A DNA stretch of 41,734 nt from the NCBI GenBank assembly GCA_026984515.1, contig JALSRZ010000130.1:1-41734 (forward strand), read 5' to 3'. Under the pieces are notes generated by a model. The model made no database searches and was not told the DNA's origin. It saw nothing but the letters and a program-made list of their open reading frames with translations. Positions 11,346 through 23,201 of this stretch are shown piece after piece; the stretch's first letter is position 1, and each line of letters starts with the position of its first letter. This DNA comes from Thiohalobacter sp. GTDB taxonomy: Bacteria > Pseudomonadota > Gammaproteobacteria > DSM-19610. The translations under genes were made by a program, and so were the position numbers.

Positions 11346-11563
11346 AAGGTCTCACCCATCCAGCTACGGCTTCATTGAGCGCTTATGATAATTTGGATCA
11401 CTGCACCTACCAACCCCCGTCAGCCGATATAATTACTGCATATATAACATGGGCTTATGTAATTATGCATGGCGAATTATTGAAACCACGCGCCACTGGA
11501 GATAGGATTGACTATTATAAGCCAAAAATACAGACGACGTGCACAGACACGTTAAAGCAATTC

Positions 11564-11571
11564 AGGAGGGG
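11564..11571 (+). promoter_or_regulatory. Strong ribosome binding site setting the lipoprotein start
   Basis: AGGAGGGG ends 4 nt before the ATG at 11576 (AGGAGG core spaced 6 nt). It is among the strongest Shine-Dalgarno matches I saw in the window and decides the start over an in-frame upstream option at 11375. The 230-bp gap upstream, shared with the divergent glycosyltransferase gene, is AT-rich around 11430-11530, but I could not assign a convincing promoter pair. Confidence 0.7.
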
Positions 11572-11575
11572 CTCC

Positions 11576-12529
11576 ATGGTCAACAAATCAATTCTAGTTC
11601 TGTTTGTCGTTACATTGCTGGCCAGCGCCGGATGCGCCATTGTGCACACAACCCCGCTGGCCGCACGTAAAGGCGATACTGTCATGGTTTCCGTAGGCTC
11701 CCCTGATGACATGACCAGATCCAACACCAGCCTGACCTATACTCCCTCGGGTGGTTCGGCAATCGCTATCCCGAACAGCGCGATTCGCGCGATATTCAAC
11801 CTGTACCCCGACAAAAACAGTGATGTCTGGCTCTATTCAGCAGCAGGACTCATTGAAAACGAGTCAGGACACGGGCCATGGAATACGGTTCTCGTTTTCG
11901 ATGTACCTGGCGGACCTGGCGACACCAGTGGAGTCGTACTCCCGGAAGGCCCCGGAAACCTGCAGATCAACACGACTGCCACGTATGACGGAACCATCCC
12001 GGGCGTCAATGGCCGGGATATCGCCCTGGAAATACTGCCTGGTACCGGAGCTTCCAGTTCGTTCAATTATCTGGGTTTTGGCGGCGTGGAACTGACCGGG
12101 GATCTGTCCCGGCTCGAACCCATGAAGAAACTTCAATTCAAACCAGTCTGGACCGGCCGCGACAGTACAAATACGTACGGAGCTGTTGAGATCAAGATCG
12201 GCCTGGACAGCAGCGGTATCGCGAAAGGCGATTTCAATGTCGTCGTTGATGACAAGATCGGGCCTTTACAACAAACCAGGCGCGTACACAGCATCTGGAA
12301 CAAAACCCGGTTCGAGCTGACTGTTTACTTCATCAGCCCGGTAGGCAACTTGCAGTACTCGGATGTCAATTTCTCGGTCATCTCAAAAGAATTGCAGACA
12401 CAGTTTGAAAACGGTACGCAAAATGTTGCCACCGACATAACCATCAATTCCGTTACCTGGTATGACGTCAACGGCGCAGTAGACTCCAGTGGCCCGCCTA
12501 TTACCCTGGTTAATCAGACGGGCACCTGA
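11576..12529 (+). CDS. Predicted lipoprotein/exported protein of unknown function
   Basis: This 317-aa protein opens with MVNKSILVLFVVTLLASAGC, a lipoprotein-like signal with the candidate lipidated Cys at residue 20. The -3 position is Ser rather than the usual Leu/Val, so the lipobox is imperfect. The mature part is beta-rich, Gly/Ser/Thr/Pro-rich, and poor in Cys and Lys. It includes a segment around residues 100-150 with WNTVLVFDVPGGPGDTSG and a second half of alternating polar/hydrophobic strands. I do not recognise a domain. It is one of two clearly exported non-enzyme-like proteins here, so it is a candidate surface substrate for nearby modifying enzymes, but that is inference only. 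A broken sulfotransferase follows on the same strand. Confidence 0.75.
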   Translation: MVNKSILVLFVVTLLASAGCAIVHTTPLAARKGDTVMVSVGSPDDMTRSNTSLTYTPSGGSAIAIPNSAIRAIFNLYPDKNSDVWLYSAAGLIENESGHGPWNTVLVFDVPGGPGDTSGVVLPEGPGNLQINTTATYDGTIPGVNGRDIALEILPGTGASSSFNYLGFGGVELTGDLSRLEPMKKLQFKPVWTGRDSTNTYGAVEIKIGLDSSGIAKGDFNVVVDDKIGPLQQTRRVHSIWNKTRFELTVYFISPVGNLQYSDVNFSVISKELQTQFENGTQNVATDITINSVTWYDVNGAVDSSGPPITLVNQTGT

Positions 12530-12538
12530 ACATAATAA

Positions 12539-13331
12539 TGGTTCATTTTTTCGGCCAGCACATGGATAAAGTATATTATCCACTCCCTTGAACAGCTGCG
12601 CCCAATACCGCTCACGTTTGATCGCCTGCCGGAAACCAGGCTTTTTATGTTCATTCACGACCGCGAGCGGTTTGGACTCCCGCCACTGGCGGATTTTCCC
12701 GAGAGCAAAACAGGGGAAATACTTTACGGTGATGAATACTTCAAGTTCACTTTTGTCCGCAATCCCTACAGCAGGCTGGTATCCGCATGGACAAACAAGC
12801 TGTATTTTATCGAACCTGGCCTGGAATCTTTATATCAGTCGAAAAAAATCAGGTTTCCGGACTGCATCAAAAACGGATACGTAACATTTGAGGGTTTTGT
12901 CAGGTATATAAGCCAGTTTGAGGACATCCATACCTGTAACCCGCATTACCGGTTGCAGAGCAACCTCGTCATGGAGAAAGCGATCAGGTACGACATGGTT
13001 GCCATGGGTAGAGAATTTTGCCGACGGTATAAAAGAACTGGAGGCACACATCGGTGTTGGCAACCTCAGCAGTTCCAGAAACAGCCCGGCAAACGAGTCA
13101 TATAGCGAGGACTGGAGAAGCCACTATACTCCGGAGCTTGCTGAAATTGTTTACAGTCTTTATAAAGTTGATTTTGAACAGTTTGGATACACAAAAAACA
13201 GCTGGAAAGGTGGCAGCAGGATCAGCCGGAAGTCACCCCGGGAGATCTACCTGGAAAAACAGATATTTGACAGGAATCGACTGATAAGCCAGATGTACCA
13301 GTGGATCAACAGAAATTTCAACCGGCAATAA
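12539..13331 (+). pseudogene. Frameshifted, probably N-truncated sulfotransferase (Sulfotransfer_2-like)
   Basis: From about 12647 one frame reads as a carbohydrate-type sulfotransferase: EYFKFTFVRNPYSRLVSAW is the 3'-phosphate-binding motif, followed by KNGYVTFEGFVRYI, HYRLQSNLV and YDMVAMGRE. Near 13010-13016 the coding signal moves to frame +1, giving ENFADGIKELEAHIGVG, YTPELAEIVYSLYKVDFEQFGY and a natural end at 13331. One inserted base or two lost bases would explain this. The frame stays open upstream to 12539 but contains no HIPKTGGTS-like phosphosulfate loop, so the 5' end seems lost or replaced. A sequencing error could explain the frameshift but not the missing loop. It may have been transcribed with the upstream lipoprotein gene. 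Confidence 0.7.
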
Positions 13332-13376: not shown

Positions 13377-14876
13377 ATGAGCACCGGAATGTCATCAACC
13401 CCTTGCCACGATGAATGCACCTACCTGATTGAGCTGGCCCACAGGCTTGAACAATCGATGACGGAAACAGATAAGCAACTCAATAAATGGTATGAAGATG
13501 CCAATACGCTGCTGCGTTCAGCGAACCTGGAAAGCCTCGCAGGTGAACGGGAGCTGGAAAAACTCTCCTTGCAGCTACGCACCGAGTGGCTGCGCTATGC
13601 CAATCATATCTCCAGCAAATACCTGAGATCGCCGCCGCATTTCCAGATGGTATACCTGCCTTCCGGTAACCAGAACCCCCTTCCCTATGATCGCTGGAAC
13701 AAACCGGTATCCCTGGAACAGCGTGCTGCAAACTTCCGTAGCGCACCAAGCGGCTGGAAAGCGGACCACATCCTGTTCAACAGTGGCATGGGCGCGGTAA
13801 GCTGCCTGCTGCAGGTGATGCGAAAGCTGTTCGAACCCAGACCTGGCAACCCCATGCGTTTTAACGGCGTGGGCGGTTATTTCGAGATCATGGACCTGAT
13901 GCAATTCAGTCACGACGAACTGTTTCAGTTCCGGATCTTTCAACAACAACAGCAATTTCAGCGCTCGGTAGCCAGTGGCGCGTCGCAGCTGTTGTATATC
14001 GAACCTGTATACACCCTGCTTGGCCGGCTGGAAGTATTCGATATGGATGCTTTTCTTGCGGCCTGGCACCAACGTCCCGAAAATACCCCGACCGCCATAG
14101 TGGTTGACACCACTTTCGTTGGCAACAGGTTCCCTATGAAAGAGTTCCTGCGCCAACTGACACCACATGAACCCAGGGTTGTAGTCCAGATATCCTCAAC
14201 GCTTAAACTTGACCAGGAAGGACTGGAATTCTCCAATGCCGGCCTGATGAGCATATTTTCGACGACTGAACCTATTGTAAGCGGCCTTGGCAAACGCTTG
14301 CGCAAATACCGGGCATCCATGGGCCTGGGCCTGACGCTGGAGCAAACGGCTGCACTGGATTACACAGGCTTCCTCGACGCCAGCCTGTCCACACAACATG
14401 CCGACGGCATTTTCAGGAACAATGCGCTGCTGGCGCAGGAAATGGAGGTCGGCGACAACCGCCTGTTTGCCGAAAGATTCCATCCGGTTCTGCAGGAATC
14501 CCTGCACTCCACTCCCTGGGCGGTATCTCCGTTTGTTAACCTGCAGTTAAGAAGTGAAACCAGCCAGATTGAGAGAGAGTTGCTCAAACATGTACTCTTC
14601 AGGGAAGCCAGCCAGCGGGGTTTGACCTTCAAACCGGGATCGAGTTTCGGATTCCGTGCCCACCGCGTCGAAACCAGCATCCAGGACGAGCGTGGCGGCG
14701 TCCAGGTTATACGCGTAGCCATGGGCTGCAGGGAAGGGCCATCGCTTGGCGGCGCCATCAAACTGCTTAATGACATCAGCCGCATGGGAACCTTTGATGC
14801 CGTGAGGGCAAAATACCCGGAACTCCTGGAGACCGTGTTGAAAATTGCGCAACCAGAAGAGAAGGAGGCCGACTGA
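13377..14876 (+). CDS. PLP-dependent enzyme, fold type I (aminotransferase/gamma-lyase-like)
   Basis: The 499-aa product has a helical N-terminal extension of about 120 residues, then a fold-type-I PLP core. FNSGMGAVSCLLQVM (about 134-148) resembles the phosphate-binding S-G-M-A turn of Cys/Met-metabolism enzymes. IVVDTTFVGNRFP supplies the Asp (244) that pairs with the pyridine nitrogen. VVVQISSTLKLDQEG holds the likely Schiff-base Lys277. A C-terminal domain ends with VIRVAMGCREGPSLGGAI. I cannot place it in a named family. A SET-domain gene follows 68 bp downstream on the same strand, and a fold-III PLP enzyme converges on that pair, which suggests a small amino-acid-derived pathway (inference). 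No clear Shine-Dalgarno precedes the ATG. Confidence 0.72.
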   Translation: MSTGMSSTPCHDECTYLIELAHRLEQSMTETDKQLNKWYEDANTLLRSANLESLAGERELEKLSLQLRTEWLRYANHISSKYLRSPPHFQMVYLPSGNQNPLPYDRWNKPVSLEQRAANFRSAPSGWKADHILFNSGMGAVSCLLQVMRKLFEPRPGNPMRFNGVGGYFEIMDLMQFSHDELFQFRIFQQQQQFQRSVASGASQLLYIEPVYTLLGRLEVFDMDAFLAAWHQRPENTPTAIVVDTTFVGNRFPMKEFLRQLTPHEPRVVVQISSTLKLDQEGLEFSNAGLMSIFSTTEPIVSGLGKRLRKYRASMGLGLTLEQTAALDYTGFLDASLSTQHADGIFRNNALLAQEMEVGDNRLFAERFHPVLQESLHSTPWAVSPFVNLQLRSETSQIERELLKHVLFREASQRGLTFKPGSSFGFRAHRVETSIQDERGGVQVIRVAMGCREGPSLGGAIKLLNDISRMGTFDAVRAKYPELLETVLKIAQPEEKEAD

Positions 14877-14944
14877 ACCACGCCTACTGAAACCTGGCGA
14901 TTCAGGTTATCATAACGACAGTAGTCAACGGCCTGCATGATCCG

Positions 14945-15679
14945 ATGTTAAATCCGGCTATTCAAGTAAAAAAAGACAGTGTCATCGAGGGTGCCGGACT
15001 TGTGGCTGACCGGCTCATTCCGGAGGGAGACGTCCTTTTCCGCTTCGACGACATAAACCCACCGGCTCACCTCCATGAGCTGGTCGACTGGCCGCCACAG
15101 AGACGCATCAGGTTCCTGGCATTCGCCATTCAGATCGGCGAAGACGACTACGCGTTCAGGCAGGGTGATATAAAATTCATCAATCATTCCTGTGACCCGA
15201 CCGGCTGGTGGTCAGGCTACGGCACACTTATCGCCCGCAGGGATATACACCCTGGAGAGGAAATAACCTACGACTATTCGACATCGGATATAACACTGAA
15301 GTACCGGATGGAATGTCTTTGTGGAACTGAATCCTGTCGAGGTATTGTCACCAACCAGGACTACCTGGATCCCGACTTCCAGAAAAAATACGCCGGTCAC
15401 ATACCGGAACATGTTATGGCCGCTATAGACAGGGCCCGTTCAGCCGCCCCGGTCGGCACCGGGCGGGACACGGTAGATATTCCTGCTCATGTAATTGAGG
15501 CTGTACAGCAGGCCAGACAGAAAGCTCCTGCGCTTCGCCTTGAGTTCGGCAACCAGTATATTTTTGAAATGGTCAAACTGGCTGTGCACCAGGTGCGTTC
15601 AAACAACCCCGGGTTTCGCAGGGAACACGGCGACAGATACCTCTACGAGATGGTCCGGGAACTGATATTAAAAAACTGA
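14945..15679 (+). CDS. SET-domain protein-lysine methyltransferase with repeated C-terminal tail
   Basis: The 244-aa protein carries a compact SET domain at about residues 5-115: an N-terminal GAGLVADRLIPEGD strand pair, FINHSCDPTGWW with the SAM-binding NHSC at 80-83, and GEEITYDYS with catalytic-type Tyr109/Tyr111. A post-SET zinc-type motif C-x-C-x4-C follows (CLCGTESCRG, 124-133). SET enzymes methylate lysines of proteins using SAM. The remaining 90 residues hold two repeat pairs: IPEHVMAAIDRARSAAP with IPAHVIEAVQQARQKAP, and FGNQYIFEMVKLAVHQV with HGDRYLYEMVRELILKN. The tail may bind a partner or substrate. The stop codon is the first part of a terminator hairpin. Bacterial SET proteins are uncommon and often horizontally acquired. 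Confidence 0.85.
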   Translation: MLNPAIQVKKDSVIEGAGLVADRLIPEGDVLFRFDDINPPAHLHELVDWPPQRRIRFLAFAIQIGEDDYAFRQGDIKFINHSCDPTGWWSGYGTLIARRDIHPGEEITYDYSTSDITLKYRMECLCGTESCRGIVTNQDYLDPDFQKKYAGHIPEHVMAAIDRARSAAPVGTGRDTVDIPAHVIEAVQQARQKAPALRLEFGNQYIFEMVKLAVHQVRSNNPGFRREHGDRYLYEMVRELILKN

Positions 15680-15709
15680 CTACACAGGTGTAGTCACCCC
15701 GGCTTTTTT
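15677..15709. terminator. Bidirectional intrinsic terminator between convergent genes
   Basis: TGACTACAC-AG-GTGTAGTCA (15677-15696) is a perfect 9-bp stem with a 2-nt loop. On the minus strand it is followed by GTTTTTT, a good intrinsic terminator for the decarboxylase-like gene. On the plus strand a T6 run at 15704-15709 lies 7 nt beyond the stem. The first three bases of the stem are the TGA stop of the SET gene. Confidence 0.75.
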
Positions 15710-16925
15710 ACAGCCTGACCCAGACAGTATCTGCAACCGGGATCCCGTTAAATGAAGTATTCCATTCCATGGAATAGGTGCTCACCTTCCCGAAAACCAC
15801 CTGACTGCCAATCTCCAGCCCCGCATCAGGAATCACATCGCCAGAATACGGCACGTAGTATTTTCCGATAAAATCCGACTCGTAACAGGAAGGCCCAAAG
15901 AACTGCACTACGCACCCCTTGTCGTGGTGCGGTTCAAAGAAGTGTAACAGGCTGGGAGACGACCAGTGCAGGTGACTTTTTCCGGACAGATCCAGCGTAC
16001 ACCTGACAATATCCCCCGCACGGGAAAGATTGACAACTGTGCCGACAGCGTAACCTGCCGGCTCGGCGTACCAGCGCCCGGGCTCAAACAGTATGGAGCA
16101 GGGTTCAGGAAACCGCTTCCGGGCACTGTCCAGCACTTCCCTGATATCCTGCCTCGACAGGTGGTGCCAGCCCCCCCCGAGGTTGATACACGCGGCAGGC
16201 ATATCCAGCAGCGCCCCCAGCTTCCCCAGTCCTTCAAGAAGGGTGTTGTAAGTGGATTTCCTGTTGACCTCACTGCCGTGATGAACATGAAACCCGATCG
16301 GTTTTTTCCCCTTTATGGCAGGGGTCTGCAGGAGTTGTCCGATTTCACTGACAGTAAATCCGAACCGGGTAACCGGGTAGTAAGCAGGATCATGCGGTTT
16401 TGATGCTCCCAGGAGGCTTGAGCCCTGGACTCTCAAAAGATACTCGCAGGGATCCTGCTGCGCCAGATGTCTTGCAAGCTGCGCCGGACTATCCAGCGTG
16501 ACAACGAGCTTGTTACCCTTGCTGCGAAAGTCTTCCATCCTGTCTGTTATTACAGGCGACGTAACTGAAACCAGCTTGCCCCGCAGGTCGTCTGGCAACA
16601 GCGAATACTCGTTCAGGTTTGAAACATCATAGCCACCAAGATGCTGTTGAGCCAGGCACAGGAAGTCCCGATCGGTGCAGCTTTTCACCGCCAGAAGTGG
16701 CGTCACCGAAAACGCTTTTGACGTTTCAGCCAGCCAGCGCATCCGGGATTCCACGACACCCAGATCGAATACCAGTGTTGGTCGGGTAACATTGGCAGAG
16801 GCCAGCCATCCGTGCACAGGATGCGAAGTCACGTTGCTGCCTATCGCCTGATTCAGCGCAACGGCAAACTTCTCCCTGCCCACACCGGGTTTACCGAATT
16901 GATTGAGTTCTATCAGGATAGACAT
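15708..16925 (-). CDS. Fold-type-III PLP enzyme (DAP/ornithine decarboxylase-like)
   Basis: The 405-aa product fits the alanine-racemase-fold decarboxylase superfamily, which includes DAP, ornithine and carboxynorspermidine decarboxylases. Landmarks are VTPLLAVKSCTD with Schiff-base Lys81, GFHVHHGSEV at about 211-220, INLGGGWH at about 247-254 and EPGRWYAEPAG at about 281-291 for PLP phosphate binding. In the C-terminal beta domain are FFGPSCYESD at about 342-351, whose Cys347 is expected to complete the partner subunit active site, and STYSMEWNTSFNG ending at 394. The substrate cannot be assigned; the family also decarboxylates carrier-bound or unusual amino acids. It converges on the SET gene, sharing a terminator, and is divergent from the GT41 gene at 17081. 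Confidence 0.82.
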   Translation of the reverse strand: MSILIELNQFGKPGVGREKFAVALNQAIGSNVTSHPVHGWLASANVTRPTLVFDLGVVESRMRWLAETSKAFSVTPLLAVKSCTDRDFLCLAQQHLGGYDVSNLNEYSLLPDDLRGKLVSVTSPVITDRMEDFRSKGNKLVVTLDSPAQLARHLAQQDPCEYLLRVQGSSLLGASKPHDPAYYPVTRFGFTVSEIGQLLQTPAIKGKKPIGFHVHHGSEVNRKSTYNTLLEGLGKLGALLDMPAACINLGGGWHHLSRQDIREVLDSARKRFPEPCSILFEPGRWYAEPAGYAVGTVVNLSRAGDIVRCTLDLSGKSHLHWSSPSLLHFFEPHHDKGCVVQFFGPSCYESDFIGKYYVPYSGDVIPDAGLEIGSQVVFGKVSTYSMEWNTSFNGIPVADTVWVRL

Positions 16926-17080
16926 GAAAAAGAATGCATTGCGGCCTGATTACGCCTGTTTTTGATAACAACATTGTACCCTTGCCTGCACGTTAGTAAA
17001 GATCAGGGAACCCGTAACAGTTCGCGCTATTGTGCTACTATAACCGCTGAATAACCCACTGGTTGCAGCCTGTTTTCCTG

Positions 17081-18952
17081 ATGGCGAAGCATCAAAAGAA
17101 AAATGATCCGCAGCGAAAAGCGCGTCACCTGGCCAGTACAAACCGCCTGGACGAGGCACGTGAACTTTACCTGAAAATCTGCCGCAGGCAGCCGCAGGAC
17201 GGGGGGGCATGGCTCGGACTGGCCGAAACCTGTCGCAAACTGGGGTTGCTGCAGGAAGCCTGGCGAGCCGCCCGCAAGCTTCTTGAGATAGATTCTCACG
17301 ACCCGGACGCCCTGCATGTACTTGGCTCAATACTGCACAGACAGGGGCATCTCGAAGCCGCGGTCAACAACTACCGACAGGCCCTGCAGATCGATCCCGG
17401 CAAGGTGGAAACCCACTATTTCCTGGCCAATGCGCTGCGCGAACAGGGCTTTTTTGAAGCCGCCGAGAACGAATATCAACGCACGATTGCACTGCAACCT
17501 GATCATGTCGAAGCGCTGAACAATCTGTCTGCACTGTTAACCAACCGGGGAAGGATCCAGCAAGCCGCCGAATTACTGCAACGCGCCCTCCGCGTACGTC
17601 CGGACAGTCACCAGATGCTCATCAACCTGGGCCGCGCAAACCTGCACGCCGGAAATGCAGTTGAAGCTGCGACCGTCTTCCGCCGGGTAATCGAACTGCA
17701 ACCAGGACTGGCCGATGCGCACAGCAATCTGCTGGCCTGCCTCAATTACCTGCCGGGACTGGAACCCCGCACTGTTTTCGAGCAACATCAGAGCTGGGCC
17801 ACGGCACACACCTGCACCATCGCGCCAAACAATACCTGGTACAACGATCCGGACCCACACCGTCGGCTGCACGTGGCGTACCTTTCCGCGGACCTGTGCG
17901 AACATTCAGTGGCTCGCTTCCTGCAGCCGGTACTGGCCAGTCATGACCATGAATCCCTTGAAATCACCTGCTATTCCGACGTAACGAAGCCGGATGCGAT
18001 CACCAGGCAGCTACGCGGGCTTTGCAACCATTGGCGTGAGACTGCCAGTCTCTCCGACGAGCAGCTTGCCGGGCTGGTCACCAGGGACAAAATCGATATT
18101 CTGGTCGACCTTGCCGGACACACGGCACACAACCGGCTGCTCGTTTTCGCGCACAAACCTGCTCCCCTGCAGGTATCCTGGCTGGGCTACCCCAATACCA
18201 CCGGTCTGGCCAGCATCGATTTCAGGCTGACCGATGCCAGGGCAGACCCTCCGGGGGAAACCGATGCGCTGCACACGGAATCCCTGCTGCGTCTGCCGCG
18301 CAGCTTTATCTGCTACGGCCCCCCGCAGGATGCGCCCGAGCCCACCACACCTCCTTCACAGTCCGCGGGCCACATCACCTTCGGCTCGTTCAATAATCTT
18401 GCCAAGACGACCCCGGAACTCATCGAAACCTGGTCCCGGATCCTGTCCGCAGTACCGGGCTCCCGCCTGCTGCTGAAGAGTCGCGCCACCGCTGACCCGG
18501 CCACCAGGCAGCGCCTGCTCGCCCTGTTTTCCGCAGCAGATGTCAACGTGGAACGGATCGGCTTCCTGAACCCGGAACCCTCCCACTTCGAACACCTGGC
18601 CGCCTACCGCCAGATTGATATCGCGCTGGACACCTTTCCCTACCATGGCACCACCACGACCTGCGAAGCCCTCTGGATGGGTATCCCGGTAATCACCCGG
18701 GCAGGACCGGTGCACGCCGCTCGCGTAGGCGTCAGCCTGTTGGCACAGGTGGGACTCGACCAGCTGGTGGCAACCGGAGAGAAAGAGTATATCCGTACAG
18801 CAGCCCGGCTGGCAGGCGACCGGGAACTCCTGGCAACCCTGCATCACACCCTGCGCGGAACCATGCGCCGCTCCTCCCTGTGCGACGCGGCAGGTTTCAC
18901 CGCCGAACTGGAACAGGCCTATCGAAAAATGTGGGTTGACTGGTGTCAGTAG
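17081..18952 (+). CDS. TPR protein with O-GlcNAc-transferase (GT41, SPINDLY-like) catalytic domain
   Basis: This 623-aa protein has about six TPR units over residues 10-220 (for example ALHVLGSILHRQGHLEAAV, ALNNLSALLTNRGRIQQAA) and a GT41 domain over about 260-620. Landmarks are RLHVAYLSADLCEHSVARF with the conserved His at about 273, DILVDLAGHTAHNRLLVF, VSWLGYPNTTGLASIDFRL, ITFGSFNNLAKTTPE with the UDP-contacting Lys at about 440, and LDTFPYHGTTTTCEALWMG. These blocks are close to the usual bacterial SPINDLY/OGT pattern, so activity is likely. The ATG at 17081 is preferred over a TTG at 17063. It overlaps the next GT41 gene by 10 bp, so the two should be co-expressed. The acceptor is unknown. 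Confidence 0.9.
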   Translation: MAKHQKKNDPQRKARHLASTNRLDEARELYLKICRRQPQDGGAWLGLAETCRKLGLLQEAWRAARKLLEIDSHDPDALHVLGSILHRQGHLEAAVNNYRQALQIDPGKVETHYFLANALREQGFFEAAENEYQRTIALQPDHVEALNNLSALLTNRGRIQQAAELLQRALRVRPDSHQMLINLGRANLHAGNAVEAATVFRRVIELQPGLADAHSNLLACLNYLPGLEPRTVFEQHQSWATAHTCTIAPNNTWYNDPDPHRRLHVAYLSADLCEHSVARFLQPVLASHDHESLEITCYSDVTKPDAITRQLRGLCNHWRETASLSDEQLAGLVTRDKIDILVDLAGHTAHNRLLVFAHKPAPLQVSWLGYPNTTGLASIDFRLTDARADPPGETDALHTESLLRLPRSFICYGPPQDAPEPTTPPSQSAGHITFGSFNNLAKTTPELIETWSRILSAVPGSRLLLKSRATADPATRQRLLALFSAADVNVERIGFLNPEPSHFEHLAAYRQIDIALDTFPYHGTTTTCEALWMGIPVITRAGPVHAARVGVSLLAQVGLDQLVATGEKEYIRTAARLAGDRELLATLHHTLRGTMRRSSLCDAAGFTAELEQAYRKMWVDWCQ

Positions 18953-21033
18953 GCAAACAGGACAACATATCCGGACTGCTGGAAAGTGCGTTACGGCACC
19001 ACCAGGCCGGCGAGCTGAATGAAGCAGAAAAACTGTACCGGGAAGTCCTCGCCTGCGAAGCCGTGCATCCCAGGGCACTGTATCTACTCGGCACCCTGAA
19101 AGCGCAAGGCGGCGATACGGCAGAGGCAGTTCGCTATCTCAGGGAGGCAACCCGGCATGACCCCGGTTTCAACGCAGCCTGGCTCAACCTGGGGAATGCC
19201 CTGCTACAACTTGCCAATGCCGATGAAGCCGAAACCTGCTACCGCAAGGCCATCAAGACTGCTCCGGAACAGGCAGACGCATACTTCGGGCTCGGTCGCA
19301 CCCTGCTCTCGCTGCGCCGCTATAACGAAGCACAGGATGAGCTGAAACGGGCACTTGCACTCAAACCACAGTTCGCAGAAGCACAATACCAGCTGGGAAA
19401 AGCCTTTTTCCTACTGGGAAAACTGACAGAGGCTGAAAACAGTTACCGGCAAGCGTTGCGACAGAATCCACAACTGTTACATATCTATACCGATCTGGGC
19501 AGAACGCTGCGAACGCTGGGGAAGCTCGATGAGGCAGCTGCAGCCTACCGGGAAATTATCCGGGCACGACCCGAAGCGGCCGATGCCTGGAATAACCTCG
19601 GTAACGTCCTGCGCCAGCAATCGCGCATGGATGATGCAGCCGAATGTTACCGGCGCGCCCTCTCGATAGATCCGAAGCTGGCCGAAACGCAAAATAACCT
19701 GGGGAATGTACTCAAGACCCTGGGACGACTCGATGAAGCCGCAGGCTGTTATCGACAGGCGATTCAACTCAAACCCGGTTTCATACAGGCACACAGCAAT
19801 CTCCTGCTGTGCCTGAACTACATTCCGGGTTACGATGAACAGCAGCTGTTCCGGGAACATCTGCACTGGGCAGCAACGCACACCCCCACCCGTCCGGTGA
19901 GCGGTAAGTACAGTAATATTCCGGACCCGGGGCGCCGTTTGCGCGTGGGCTACGTTTCCCCTGATTTCCGGACCCACGCGGTTACCCGGTTTTTCGAACC
20001 CCTGTATGCCCATCACAATCATGAAGTGGTCGAAACCATCTGCTATGCGCAGCTGGTCAAAGGTGATGAGACCACCGAACGGCTGCAGTCCATGTCCGAT
20101 GGATGGCGCCGCACCATTGGCATGACCCAGGCAGGGCTGGCCGAACAGATCCGGGAGGATGCTATCGATATCCTGGTGGATCTTGCCGGCCATACGGCGC
20201 GCAATCGTCTGCCGGTATTCAGGCTGCGGCCAGCGCCGCTACAGATCTCCTGGCTGGGCTACCCGAACACCACCGGTATGGCCACCCTGGACTACCGGCT
20301 GACCGATGCCATTGCTGATCCTGACGGAGCGGACCGGTTCTACACGGAACGGCTGTTGCGGCTGGAAAACGGTCTTACCTGCTTTCTGCCACCGACCGAT
20401 GCGCCAGACCCCGGCCCCCTGCCGGCCGGCGGCTCCGGCCGGGTAACATTTGGCTCACTGAATAACCTGGTGAAACTCAATGACCAGGTAATCGCGCTCT
20501 GGAGCCGCGTACTCAGGCAGGTTCCGGGCGCCCGTTTACTGCTTTTTCGGGATATGCTGCAGGGAAAGGTCGCGGAACGGGTACAATCGGGGTTCGAGCA
20601 GCATGGTATTAATAGCAGCCAGCTTGAATTACGTCACGAAGCAGGTAGCGGCAATACATACCTCAACGTCTACCAGGAAATCGACATCGCCCTGGACCCG
20701 TTTCCGTGGAACGGCCACGTTACCAGTTGCGAAGCCCTGTGGATGGGCGTGCCGGTAATTGCCCTGCTGGGACCGGCACATCGGGGACGCCTGGCAGCGA
20801 GTGTGCTGCACCAGGTCGGCCTGGAATCCCTGGTCGCCCGGGACCCCGATGACTATGTGCACATCGCCTCCGAGCTGGCCAGGGATGTACGAGGGATGGA
20901 GCAACTACGTTCAGGCCTGCGTCAGCGGGTAGCGGAATCGCCATTGTGTGACGGCCCTGGCATGGCGCTCGAGGTGGAAGCCATCTACCGCAAGCTGTGG
21001 CACCACTGGTGCACAGGCCGGGATACCCGCTAG
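18943..21033 (+). CDS. TPR protein with O-GlcNAc-transferase (GT41, SPINDLY-like) catalytic domain, second tandem copy
   Basis: The 696-aa product has a longer TPR array than its neighbour (about eight units, residues 10-290, including AWLNLGNALLQLANADEAE and AWNNLGNVLRQQSRMDDAA), then a GT41 domain over about 328-690. It shows RLRVGYVSPDFRTHAVTRF with the conserved His at about 343, DILVDLAGHTARNRLPVF, ISWLGYPNTTGMATLDYRL, FGSLNNLVKLND with the Lys at about 510, and LDPFPWNGHVTSCEALWMG. The likely start is GTG at 18943, inside the end of the upstream GT41 gene, implying translational coupling. Its TAG stop is the first triplet of a palindromic repeat. Different TPR length and active-site loops suggest a different substrate set from the first copy. 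Confidence 0.9.
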   Translation: MSVGKQDNISGLLESALRHHQAGELNEAEKLYREVLACEAVHPRALYLLGTLKAQGGDTAEAVRYLREATRHDPGFNAAWLNLGNALLQLANADEAETCYRKAIKTAPEQADAYFGLGRTLLSLRRYNEAQDELKRALALKPQFAEAQYQLGKAFFLLGKLTEAENSYRQALRQNPQLLHIYTDLGRTLRTLGKLDEAAAAYREIIRARPEAADAWNNLGNVLRQQSRMDDAAECYRRALSIDPKLAETQNNLGNVLKTLGRLDEAAGCYRQAIQLKPGFIQAHSNLLLCLNYIPGYDEQQLFREHLHWAATHTPTRPVSGKYSNIPDPGRRLRVGYVSPDFRTHAVTRFFEPLYAHHNHEVVETICYAQLVKGDETTERLQSMSDGWRRTIGMTQAGLAEQIREDAIDILVDLAGHTARNRLPVFRLRPAPLQISWLGYPNTTGMATLDYRLTDAIADPDGADRFYTERLLRLENGLTCFLPPTDAPDPGPLPAGGSGRVTFGSLNNLVKLNDQVIALWSRVLRQVPGARLLLFRDMLQGKVAERVQSGFEQHGINSSQLELRHEAGSGNTYLNVYQEIDIALDPFPWNGHVTSCEALWMGVPVIALLGPAHRGRLAASVLHQVGLESLVARDPDDYVHIASELARDVRGMEQLRSGLRQRVAESPLCDGPGMALEVEAIYRKLWHHWCTGRDTR

Positions 21034-21083
21034 CCCGAATTTCTCACCGGGTTCCGTAGCGAGGCGGTGAGAAATGCGGGCTA
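21031..21083. repeat. Short palindromic element (REP/MITE-like), short form
   Basis: This 53-bp unit consists of TAGCCCGAATTTCTCACCG, a 15-bp loop (GGTTCCGTAGCGAGG), and CGGTGAGAAATGCGGGCTA. The 19-bp arms match at 18 of 19 positions. The loop is identical to the corresponding stretch of the 182-bp element at 36327-36508. It lies between convergent genes and could also work as a transcription barrier. The first TAG is the stop codon of the GT41 gene. Confidence 0.85.
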
Positions 21084-21127
21084 GTGAAAATAACGAACGT
21101 GATGCCCGATACTATAGGGTTTCCCGG

Positions 21128-23014
21128 TTAGTCGCAGTTTATACCTGCTGCTTCAAGCTGCTCGCGGAGTGGTCGCAGGTACTGCTCATAATGTCTCCAA
21201 CGCTCCAGTGACCGGGTGTACATGGGTTGTCGAACCTGTTCATAACTGAGAGTAAAGACAAAACGGTTCGTAGCGTGAAAGTCAAGGCAGCGCTCATCCC
21301 ATTCCAGGCCGCAGAATTTTACAATCTCCCGGCTGTAACGTTCCTGCTCACACACCAGGTCAGCATACGAAACCTGCAGCACATGATCGGGAAAAACGCG
21401 TGCCCAGTGCTGCATCAGCCTGTGGTACTGGATATAGAATTCCCCAGCCGTCTTCAAATCATAGGAGAAGTCGTGCCCTATGGTGCCAAAGTCTGAAAAA
21501 AAACAGGACAGACAGGTATCCAGTGGGTGGCGTATACACTGGATAATACGCGCAGCGGGGAAAAGTTGTGCTATCAAACCAACATAGACGAGATTGTAAG
21601 GCATCTTGTCTGTGACCCTTGCTGCCGTCCCGCCCAGCTCCATGAGCGTCCGCAAGTGCTGCTCCGCGGCAACATCCAGCGATTCCCGGGTGACATACCT
21701 GGCCAGCCCGGGAAATGTGAGCCCCGGGTAATCAACGGTAAAGCGCCGCACAATCCTGGAAATATGCGGTAACTCCCCGGCACCGAACACCTCCGGGTGG
21801 GAGGCAAGGATCTGCTCGACAAGACTAGTGCCGGAACGTGGCATACCGACAATGAATACCGGCAGTTCCGTACAGCTGTCAGCGCGGCGCATACTCCCTG
21901 CAAATTCCTCACTGTAGGTGGCAATAATTCCGTCTACCAGTCGAACCTGTGCCTCGCGGTTGAAATCCGCAGGCGTCAGGGCGTTTGCCTGCTCGAAATG
22001 CCGGAAAGCCGTGTCATAGTCACCAAACTCATCGTAGTGCCTGCCCAGCTGAAAATGGATACCTGCAGCAGCTTCAACACGCATATCCGGCCGTTCACCA
22101 AGAAATCTCTCCAACTCTCTGACAGCCTGGTCCCGCTTCCCGATGTGTTTGCTGATATCGAAGAATACCGGGAGCGCACTGCCATACCCCGCCTCTACCA
22201 GGGGTCGCAGCAGATCATGTGATTTTACGTATTCGCCCAGTTGCTCGAATATTTTCGCCTGCGCCAGAATCACTTCTCGCCAGCCGGGCACCAGGCGGGC
22301 CGCCTTACCGTAGCTGTGGAGCGATTCCTGCAACCGGCCGGCATGATGCAGCGCATTGGCAAGTGCACGATGGGCGTTCGGGAACTTCGGGTTGACACGT
22401 ACTGCACGCTGCAGGATTTCGATGGCGTCTTCATACCGGCTCCTGGCAACATAGGCATCCCCCAGGTTGGTCATGGTCTCGATACTGTCCGGTTGCAGTT
22501 GCAGGGCACGGTGCAGCAAAGGAACAGCCTCCTCAGCATTTCCAAGATTCTTCAGGTGAGTTCCCAGGTTATTCAGACCTGCAACATGATTCGGACTGAG
22601 TTCAAGTAGCTTGCGGTAGGCAATAGTGGCTTCGTCAAGGAGGGCTGCTTGCCGAAGCGCGTTGGCAAAAAAGTAATGCGCTTCTACCAGCTCGGGATCC
22701 AGCCGGACAGCTTCCCGGTAACAGGACAGCGCTTCATCCAGCTTGCCCTGCTGCTGGAGGGCGGCACCGAGTGCCTGGTGGGCGGATGCAAGGTTTGGCT
22801 GTAATGAGACAGCCTTGCGACAACACTGCTCTGCCTCCTTAAACGCCCCTAGGCGCCGCTGAACAACGCCCAGCGCTACCCAGGCATCTGCATCCCCCGG
22901 AGTCTGCTGACATACCTTCTCAAGTCCCGCTTTTGCCCGGGAAAACTGGTTATCAGCCAGAAACAAATCAACCTGCTTCTTCAATTTTTGTACCTGGTCT
23001 GCATTTCCGGTCAT
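21128..23014 (-). CDS. TPR-sulfotransferase fusion (TPST-like)
   Basis: The 628-aa protein has a TPR array over about residues 10-330 (AWVALGVVQRRLGAFKEAE and similar) and a C-terminal sulfotransferase over about 378-628. The phosphosulfate loop is PVFIVGMPRSGTSLVEQIL, followed by ASHPEVFGAGEL. The 3'-phosphate motif is IIQCIRHPLDTCLSCFFSDF. The C-terminal signature shared with its three paralogues here reads CGLEWDERCLDFH, then SYEQVRQPMY and RWRHYEQYL. The family is related to tyrosylprotein sulfotransferases, so protein Tyr sulfation is possible but unproven. The ATG at 23014 starts TPR-like sequence; the extension to 23146 runs into a repeat and is rejected. The next gene on the strand is another copy. 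Confidence 0.9.
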   Translation of the reverse strand: MTGNADQVQKLKKQVDLFLADNQFSRAKAGLEKVCQQTPGDADAWVALGVVQRRLGAFKEAEQCCRKAVSLQPNLASAHQALGAALQQQGKLDEALSCYREAVRLDPELVEAHYFFANALRQAALLDEATIAYRKLLELSPNHVAGLNNLGTHLKNLGNAEEAVPLLHRALQLQPDSIETMTNLGDAYVARSRYEDAIEILQRAVRVNPKFPNAHRALANALHHAGRLQESLHSYGKAARLVPGWREVILAQAKIFEQLGEYVKSHDLLRPLVEAGYGSALPVFFDISKHIGKRDQAVRELERFLGERPDMRVEAAAGIHFQLGRHYDEFGDYDTAFRHFEQANALTPADFNREAQVRLVDGIIATYSEEFAGSMRRADSCTELPVFIVGMPRSGTSLVEQILASHPEVFGAGELPHISRIVRRFTVDYPGLTFPGLARYVTRESLDVAAEQHLRTLMELGGTAARVTDKMPYNLVYVGLIAQLFPAARIIQCIRHPLDTCLSCFFSDFGTIGHDFSYDLKTAGEFYIQYHRLMQHWARVFPDHVLQVSYADLVCEQERYSREIVKFCGLEWDERCLDFHATNRFVFTLSYEQVRQPMYTRSLERWRHYEQYLRPLREQLEAAGINCD

Positions 23015-23115
23015 GATTATCTGGCTCTGGAACAGGAACGGAATCCCCTGTGGACTGCGTCCGGGCCGCGACTCTGTCCGAACCTGCTTCTGCATCAGGG
23101 AATATCTGTTTAATT

Positions 23116-23201
23116 CGTCATGGCAAGGAACGGAGTGAGGAGGCAATCTCTAACAGCCTGGTTCCATTATATGAGATCGCCTCGCTTCGCGAGCAATGAC
23201 G
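23116..23201. repeat. Imperfect inverted repeat (second palindromic family)
   Basis: The left arm begins CGTCATGGCAAGGAACGG and ends GGCAATCTC; the right arm runs GAGATCGCCTCGCTTCGCG then AGCAATGACG. The arms pair imperfectly around a roughly 23-nt loop. The pattern resembles the CGTCATTGCGAG...GCAATCTC palindromes scattered through many proteobacterial genomes (from memory). It lies in the gap between two same-strand TPR-sulfotransferase genes and is unrelated to the TAGCCCG element. Confidence 0.7.

Follow-up and report, generated by a model that had tools for sequence, protein, structure and literature searches.

A pair of pyridoxal phosphate enzymes recurring across bacterial phyla, adjoined by a SET-domain gene in Thiohalobacter sp.: a putative aminopropylation module

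Three adjacent genes in Thiohalobacter sp.

The window analyzed here, a stretch of 41,734 nucleotides from Thiohalobacter sp. (contig JALSRZ010000130.1), harbors at positions 13377-16925 three adjacent genes, each a complete open frame with domain or profile matches, as a first-pass annotation of this DNA had described. They encode a fold-I pyridoxal 5'-phosphate (PLP) enzyme of the Cys/Met family, gamma-type (13377..14876, + strand, 499 aa), a SET-domain methyltransferase (14945..15679, + strand, 244 aa; PF00856) and a fold-III PLP decarboxylase (15708..16925, - strand, 405 aa; PF02784). The fold-I and SET genes are co-oriented, with 68 bp from stop to start, and the decarboxylase gene is convergent with the SET gene. 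The recurring unit is the pair of PLP genes, for which an aminopropylation chemistry is plausibly predicted by analogy with known routes.

Among 95 related genomes, the fold-I gene is present in two, namely the window's own genome and that of HyVt-541 (G010), which belongs to the same genus. In the latter, the decarboxylase, SET and fold-I genes keep the same order and relative orientation, the gap corresponding to the 68 bp measures 38 bp, and identity to the window proteins amounts to 62-63% for fold-I, 59% for SET and 59% for the decarboxylase. The first-pass annotation had made its proposal depend on the three families occurring together elsewhere, and this one genome provides such a case. 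Since the flanking genes are also conserved between both loci, adjacency in a single relative is weak evidence for a joint function of all three. The trio is conserved beyond chance, yet it lies inside a conserved accessory block.

The fold-I family and its fold-III partners

The window fold-I protein has no Pfam or NCBIfam match, PF01053 included, and its relative in M. sciuri reaches 25 bits against PF01053, under the cut-off of 27. Its place in the Cys/Met family is therefore argued from fold and profile instead of from the PF01053 model. A 35-row profile of the fold-I family searched against PDB retrieved 16 matches (E up to 0.1; best 0.0011), all of them Cys/Met-family PLP enzymes by name, i.e., lyases, synthases or sulfhydrylases. 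Similarly, the AlphaFold model (pLDDT 93.5, pTM 0.92) matched methionine gamma-lyases, cystathionine gamma-lyases and gamma-synthases among the 50 Foldseek matches listed (E 1.7e-13 to 2.1e-12 among the rows shown). The 50 VIA matches listed belong to the same family, with Z of 23.6-26.4 for homocysteine gamma-lyase, cystathionine gamma-lyase, cystathionine gamma-synthase and methionine gamma-lyase; rows within Z 1 count as tied.

With these enzymes the protein shares the fold, its top structural matches and the Y-x-R..P, S-G-M and S-x-x-K motifs; it differs from them by an identity of 12-20% among the structural alignments listed and by three additional N-terminal helices (9-26, 33-46 and 54-79 in the model), which bear out the unusual helical N-terminus noticed in the first-pass annotation. 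Its motif reads Y104-x-R106..P110, S136-G-M, Y168, D244, S274-x-x-K277 and R430, and Y104, R106, Y168, E170, E209, D244, S274, K277 and R430 are invariant in all 35 rows. The alignment to the family was made by HMMER in the first half and by eye around the lysine, and roles were transferred by analogy from methionine gamma-lyase, on the basis of the HMMER alignment in part and otherwise of background knowledge: Y-x-R..P is presumably the phosphate motif, the Asp presumably contacts the pyridine and S-x-x-K presumably carries the Schiff-base lysine. The E-x-P-x-N-P segment of the Cys/Met enzymes, the Asn of which has a role in that family, appears by eye without this Asn. Altogether, profile, model and active-site residues place the fold-I protein in a divergent gamma-lyase/gamma-synthase branch, with a predicted gamma chemistry. 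Judging from profile scores, this branch is sharply set off from ordinary Cys/Met-type enzymes: among 391 genomes from the order of a Streptomyces relative, four genuine members score 516-592 bits and the next matches at most 31 bits. Weak matches in that set (311 of 315 genomes matched) were dropped as ordinary Cys/Met-type enzymes without individual scans. No paper dedicated to this family was found among the open-licence papers listed, a result that does not show the family to be unpublished.

At five Magnetococcales loci (L017, L021, L022, L023, L027), the fold-I domain lies at the N-terminus of longer frames (770-1116 aa); in one of them (L017:3298-6645) it is fused to a Ser/Thr kinase, followed by an FGE-sulfatase domain.

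Members of the fold-I family are spread over Pseudomonadota, Actinomycetota and Bacillota. A contig scan with a single sequence gave no relative and a five-row profile did; the 43 loci considered comprise 39 from this genome contig scan by profile, three from a plasmid search and the window itself. They are partly dependent, L044 and L045 being two ends of one genome and L041/L043 as well as L013/L040 near copies. Profile matches with E >1e-20 (10 of 22 genomes matched) were dropped as ordinary Cys/Met-type enzymes, again without individual scans. With a fold-III profile built from the window, L004, L005 and the HyVt-541 locus (listed both as L007 and as L009), a decarboxylase-type gene was found at most 3 kb from fold-I at 24 of 42 loci, the window being left aside. 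A broader fold-III profile placed a partner within 1.5 kb at 23 of all 43 loci, whereas it found none at 36 control loci with weak ordinary Cys/Met-type matches (L060-L069, L104-L129), within shorter flanks. Control loci were cut around partial matches, leaving less than 1.5 kb beyond the gene end, and two of them (L060, L068) carry internal stops. Three of the four members from the 391 genomes have a fold-III frame in their flank (one being L024's own genome), the fourth (L103) having none. The fold-III gene of L016 was excluded as a partner, as it passes the lysA cut-off and lies 3.5 kb away.

In the tree of fold-III proteins, seven rows form an NspC-type clade, there are two mainly Gram-positive clades (12 rows in one, 11 in the other), and a long separate stem leads to the window pair. 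NspC-type partners were seen at four loci of Magnetococcales and at three others from Alphaproteobacteria. Fold-I is thus paired repeatedly, as far as this tree tells, with separate fold-III lineages across phyla. Recurrence of this kind makes it very probable that the two PLP enzymes act together, as the first-pass annotation had supposed.

The settings of the pair vary. A fold-III gene, an agmatinase/arginase-family gene, a second fold-III gene, fold-I, an ABC transporter and a GNAT gene form an operon on a Mammaliicoccus plasmid (L004:1565-8792), in Bacillus (L029:6290-14017) and in Shouchella (L041:6342-13956). On plasmids of E. faecalis and L. lactis (L005:2634-10620; L006:1584-6711), a ThiF-like gene and a transporter accompany the PLP pair, in an arrangement reminiscent of microcin C clusters. 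L047:8566-10657 is grouped with these loci, with no match to ThiF, and both L006 and L047 have their fold-III gene broken into two frames.

A predicted aminopropylation route, its weak points and its rivals

In the genomes of four Magnetococcales loci (G200, G204, G211 and G263, corresponding by frame length to L017, L023, L022 and L027), the sole nspC match above 35 bits (203-263 bits) adjoins fold-I. PF16653, which we take to be the C-terminal domain of carboxyspermidine dehydrogenase, is absent in 11 of the 12 genomes tested, including these four. It was chosen as the test for the dehydrogenase as it matches two of 14 control genomes; PF03435, which matches 13 of 14, is uninformative. The twelfth genome (G774, that of L031) has PF16653 at 132 bits beside a second fold-III gene, its fold-I having an NspC-type partner of its own. 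The sole nspC match beside fold-I, together with the absence of PF16653, suggests that fold-I stands in the dehydrogenase's place. An enzyme of gamma-replacement type is able to yield the same product class, N-(3-amino-3-carboxypropyl) amines. The arrangement is comparable to the carboxyspermidine/carboxynorspermidine route (dehydrogenase CASDH with decarboxylase CASDC, or NspC for carboxynorspermidine), in which a fold-III decarboxylase likewise goes with a possible source of its carboxy-aminopropyl substrate; unlike that route, a Cys/Met PLP enzyme is found here instead of the dehydrogenase. An agmatinase/arginase-family gene at 13 of the 43 loci fits the described N1-aminopropylagmatine route (PMC11999265), of which the gene order in Mammaliicoccus, Bacillus and Shouchella is also reminiscent.

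We tentatively propose, at somewhat less than even chances, that the two PLP genes encode a two-step aminopropylation module in which fold-I replaces carboxyspermidine dehydrogenase, the SET gene being a local addition. The fold-I enzyme would form a PLP adduct with an amino acid bearing a leaving group on its gamma carbon, candidate donors being S-adenosylmethionine, an O-acylhomoserine or S-methylmethionine, and would expel this group to give a vinylglycine-type intermediate. An amine would add to this intermediate, yielding by gamma-replacement an N-(3-amino-3-carboxypropyl) amine, of which the fold-III enzyme would remove the carboxylate and leave an aminopropyl group. Fold-I would thereby act in place of the NADPH-dependent dehydrogenase of the known route, and the SET methyltransferase would modify either a small molecule (donor or product) or a protein. 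Families, conserved PLP-site residues, recurrent pairing and the missing PF16653 are observations; the order of steps, the donor, the acceptor and the SET role are inferred. The first-pass annotation had raised a methylated-lysine or polyamine-derived product: the polyamine-like part is reasonable, some partners being NspC-type, and nothing points to methylated lysine.

Such a chemistry has functional precedents. In microcin C clusters, aminocarboxypropyl transfer and decarboxylation have been described (PMC12250964, PMC10491745), and MccD with the N-terminal part of MccE (MccE-N), as well as Mur24 of muraymycin synthesis, are given as examples of aminopropylation (PMC10491745). LolC of the loline pathway has been proposed to perform a gamma-substitution (PMC4274035). 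These systems share with the proposed module a 3-amino-3-carboxypropyl transfer or a gamma-substitution, with a subsequent PLP decarboxylation described for MccE. The likeness comes from their descriptions and not from sequence: unlike fold-I, MccD is described as a methyltransferase-type protein and Mur24 as resembling 1-aminocyclopropane-1-carboxylate synthases, and the fungal LolC is proposed to condense proline with homoserine.

Several points weigh against the aminopropylation proposal. The window decarboxylase (4.3e-07 against PF02784) has K81, H215, C347, D351 and Y384 as noted residues, and K81, C347 and Y384 align with K43, C306 and Y335 of 9eaf, i.e., the PLP lysine, the active-site Cys and the Tyr are found. 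In the solved carboxyspermidine decarboxylase, Asp276 is described as binding the terminal amine of the substrate and Glu240 is also named (PMC11866407); the window protein has Ser325 and Arg284 at these positions, so that its substrate is probably not carboxyspermidine. These residues led us to reject the reading of the window protein as an orthodox carboxyspermidine decarboxylase. The window protein scores 36.9 bits with the nspC equivalog against a curated cut-off of 409, under which all nspC matches among the partners stay. Its gene shares no operon with fold-I, to which it is convergent. W321 and the C-Y-E-x-D motif are common to the window decarboxylase and to the second Gram-positive partner. 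The first fold-III protein of the Gram-positive operons has a Leu at the active-site Cys position, and not every partner need therefore be a simple decarboxylase.

Further objections concern the pairing and its genomic context. A linked fold-III partner is absent in 18 of the 42 non-window loci, some at contig ends, and the nearest relatives of the window fold-I (L015, L028 and that of Magnetovibrio) are among those without one. In the fold-I tree, the window and HyVt-541 stand among partnerless relatives, and the pairing may have been gained anew on their branch or lost in the others. All 17 genomes searched hold some fold-III match, lysA types included, which speaks neither for nor against an unlinked partner. 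The fold-III tree has long branches and weak deepest forks, and the four Magnetococcales genomes are 65-90% complete, which makes the absence of PF16653 weak for each. In addition, the host genome has a spermidine-synthase match of 171 bits and the pair is thus not required for plain spermidine. Two cystathionine beta-lyases are among the VIA matches listed (Z 24.1-24.3); as beta-lyases score equally, the fold alone leaves the fold-I reaction unfixed. We know of no member of the fold-I family with a known activity. Finally, the order of steps in microcin C synthesis is itself described as not fully settled (PMC10491745).

Regarding the SET protein, it matches PF00856 at 2.4e-12, possesses cysteines of the post-SET type (ECLCG..SCRG) and is extended at its C-terminus by about 95 aa. 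A SET gene was found at two of the 43 fold-I loci, the window and HyVt-541 (phmmer, E up to 1), and either PLP gene was found at none of 19 other gammaproteobacterial SET loci (L072-L090) within a short flank. Membership of the SET gene in the wider module was rejected on these counts, and its distribution points to a local addition to the PLP pair. SET domains occur in four of 17 genomes of the genus, as frames of 100-115 aa besides the window and HyVt-541 copies. In the class, 58 of 369 genomes have SET matches, whole-length only in the window's own genome; the best other match reaches 66 bits over positions 11-167 of 246.

BurB is described as a SET methionine S-methyltransferase, methylating the methionine sulfur (PMC12542666), and in the synthesis of dimethylsulfoniopropionate (DMSP) by Burkholderia a SET enzyme and a fold-III decarboxylase (BurI) act successively on methionine. 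By this precedent, the window SET protein could supply S-methylmethionine, a testable idea and no more, or it could be unrelated to the pair. The latter alternative, in which SET methylates protein (lysine), has no metabolic tie to the PLP pair and adjoins it since the accessory block was inherited whole, is a serious contender to which we also grant a little under an even chance. It agrees with the failure to find SET at other loci of the pair and with the PDB matches, in which histone methyltransferases rank first (ASH1L, 42-45 bits) and BurB scores less (28-30 bits over 62-69 residues), and conserved flanking genes, including a lipoprotein-like one (68%), make adjacency in one relative say little. 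On the other hand, the short gaps between the co-oriented SET and fold-I genes in both genomes, as well as the successive action of both enzyme types in DMSP synthesis, speak for a tie. This alternative is compatible with the aminopropylation proposal for the pair itself.

The fold-I protein could also be a diverged methionine/homocysteine gamma-lyase, loosely co-located with an independent amino-acid decarboxylase of fold III. We consider this improbable. The highest VIA score among the matches listed, Z 26.4, is indeed that of homocysteine gamma-lyase (1pff), with the next two matches less than 1 away and hence tied, and the Magnetovibrio fold-I gene lies among housekeeping-like genes with no fold-III neighbour; against this, the neighbour is present at 24 of 42 loci of several phyla and at none of the 36 controls, and the pairing is repeated with different fold-III lineages. 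The Magnetovibrio blakemorei locus (L010:7029-15631) has fold-I between glnD-like and mutS-like genes (by eye), no fold-III gene within the locus, and GST-like and metallo-beta-lactamase-like genes.

A DMSP-like sulfonium pathway, in which SET would make S-methylmethionine, fold III would convert it to DMSP-amine as BurI does and fold-I would act on a sulfonium, e.g., by gamma-elimination of dimethyl sulfide, seems improbable. In its favour are the described activity of BurB, the described requirement for burI and the enrichment of S-methylmethionine in its mutant (PMC7496086), the reported identity of 24% and 27% of BurI and S-methylmethionine decarboxylase (SMMDC) to a plant diaminopimelate decarboxylase, making them fold III by inference (PMC11464771), and the missing terminal-amine Asp of the window decarboxylase, which would be in keeping with a sulfonium substrate. 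Against it, the fold-I enzyme linked here belongs to the Cys/Met family and is not a transaminase like BurD, no BurE-type or other dehydrogenase was found among the nine window proteins scanned, the match of SET to BurB is short, distant and weaker than to histone enzymes, and the PLP pair exists at other loci with no SET gene. The Burkholderia pathway (BurB, BurI, BurD and BurE) nevertheless resembles the trio in combining a SET enzyme, a fold-III decarboxylase and another PLP enzyme.

If the aminopropylation proposal is true, the pair would provide a further way to aminopropylate amines, besides decarboxylated S-adenosylmethionine and aspartate semialdehyde, in a fold-I family that extends from Bacillota plasmids to Magnetococcales and whose window member has no Pfam or NCBIfam model. 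A fold-I gene beside a decarboxylase gene would then be a handle for finding polyamine-like products. A broader form, which we regard as rather unlikely, has the divergent Cys/Met enzyme make carboxy-aminopropyl amines by gamma-replacement, taking the place of the aspartate-semialdehyde dehydrogenase. This undescribed PLP route would lead to aminopropyl amines such as polyamines of the spermidine type or decorated natural products, and would exist in several phyla, where its decarboxylase partners are of three or more separate kinds. In the window lineage SET would supply S-methylmethionine, dimethyl sulfide being the leaving group. With S-methylmethionine as donor, a bacterial SET enzyme would have a metabolic role outside DMSP synthesis.

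Flanking genes and minor features

Between the convergent SET and decarboxylase genes, a hairpin resembling an intrinsic terminator lies at 15677..15696 on the - strand, with an 8-bp stem (8 pairs) and a T-run (tail GTTTTTTAAT), and is plausibly the terminator of the decarboxylase gene. The first-pass annotation had described a convergent decarboxylase gene with a shared terminator; convergence holds, and sharing holds in part, as the T-run is on the minus strand and none directly follows the stem on the plus strand. Terminator-like sites in 4 kb numbered eight against 4.1 expected in shuffles, which makes this hairpin weak by itself, and the matching stretch of HyVt-541 contains no obvious hairpin by eye. 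At the C-terminal end of the SET protein (window 15395-15676), two similar stretches, FGNQYIFEMVKLAV and HGDRYLYEMVRELI, have no Pfam coverage and are kept in HyVt-541.

The lipoprotein-like gene (11375..12529, + strand), named by eye, is a neighbour outside the proposed module that adjoins the trio in HyVt-541 too; among the 17 genomes of the genus, five others have remoter relatives of it (at most 41%). Just upstream of fold-I, coding sequence resembling a sulfotransferase (PF03567) is divided between two frames of the + strand (12647-13105 and 12918-13331) and seems to have no start, suggesting a decayed gene or an assembly error; a longer similar frame is seen by eye at the HyVt-541 locus (L007:14639-15736). 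On the other side of the trio, positions 17063-23146 encode two adjoining TPR/Glyco_transf_41 (OGT-like) proteins; next comes, on the opposite strand, a TPR-like protein whose C-terminal half looks like a sulfotransferase by eye. Glyco_transf_41-like frames flank the trio at the HyVt-541 locus as well (by eye).

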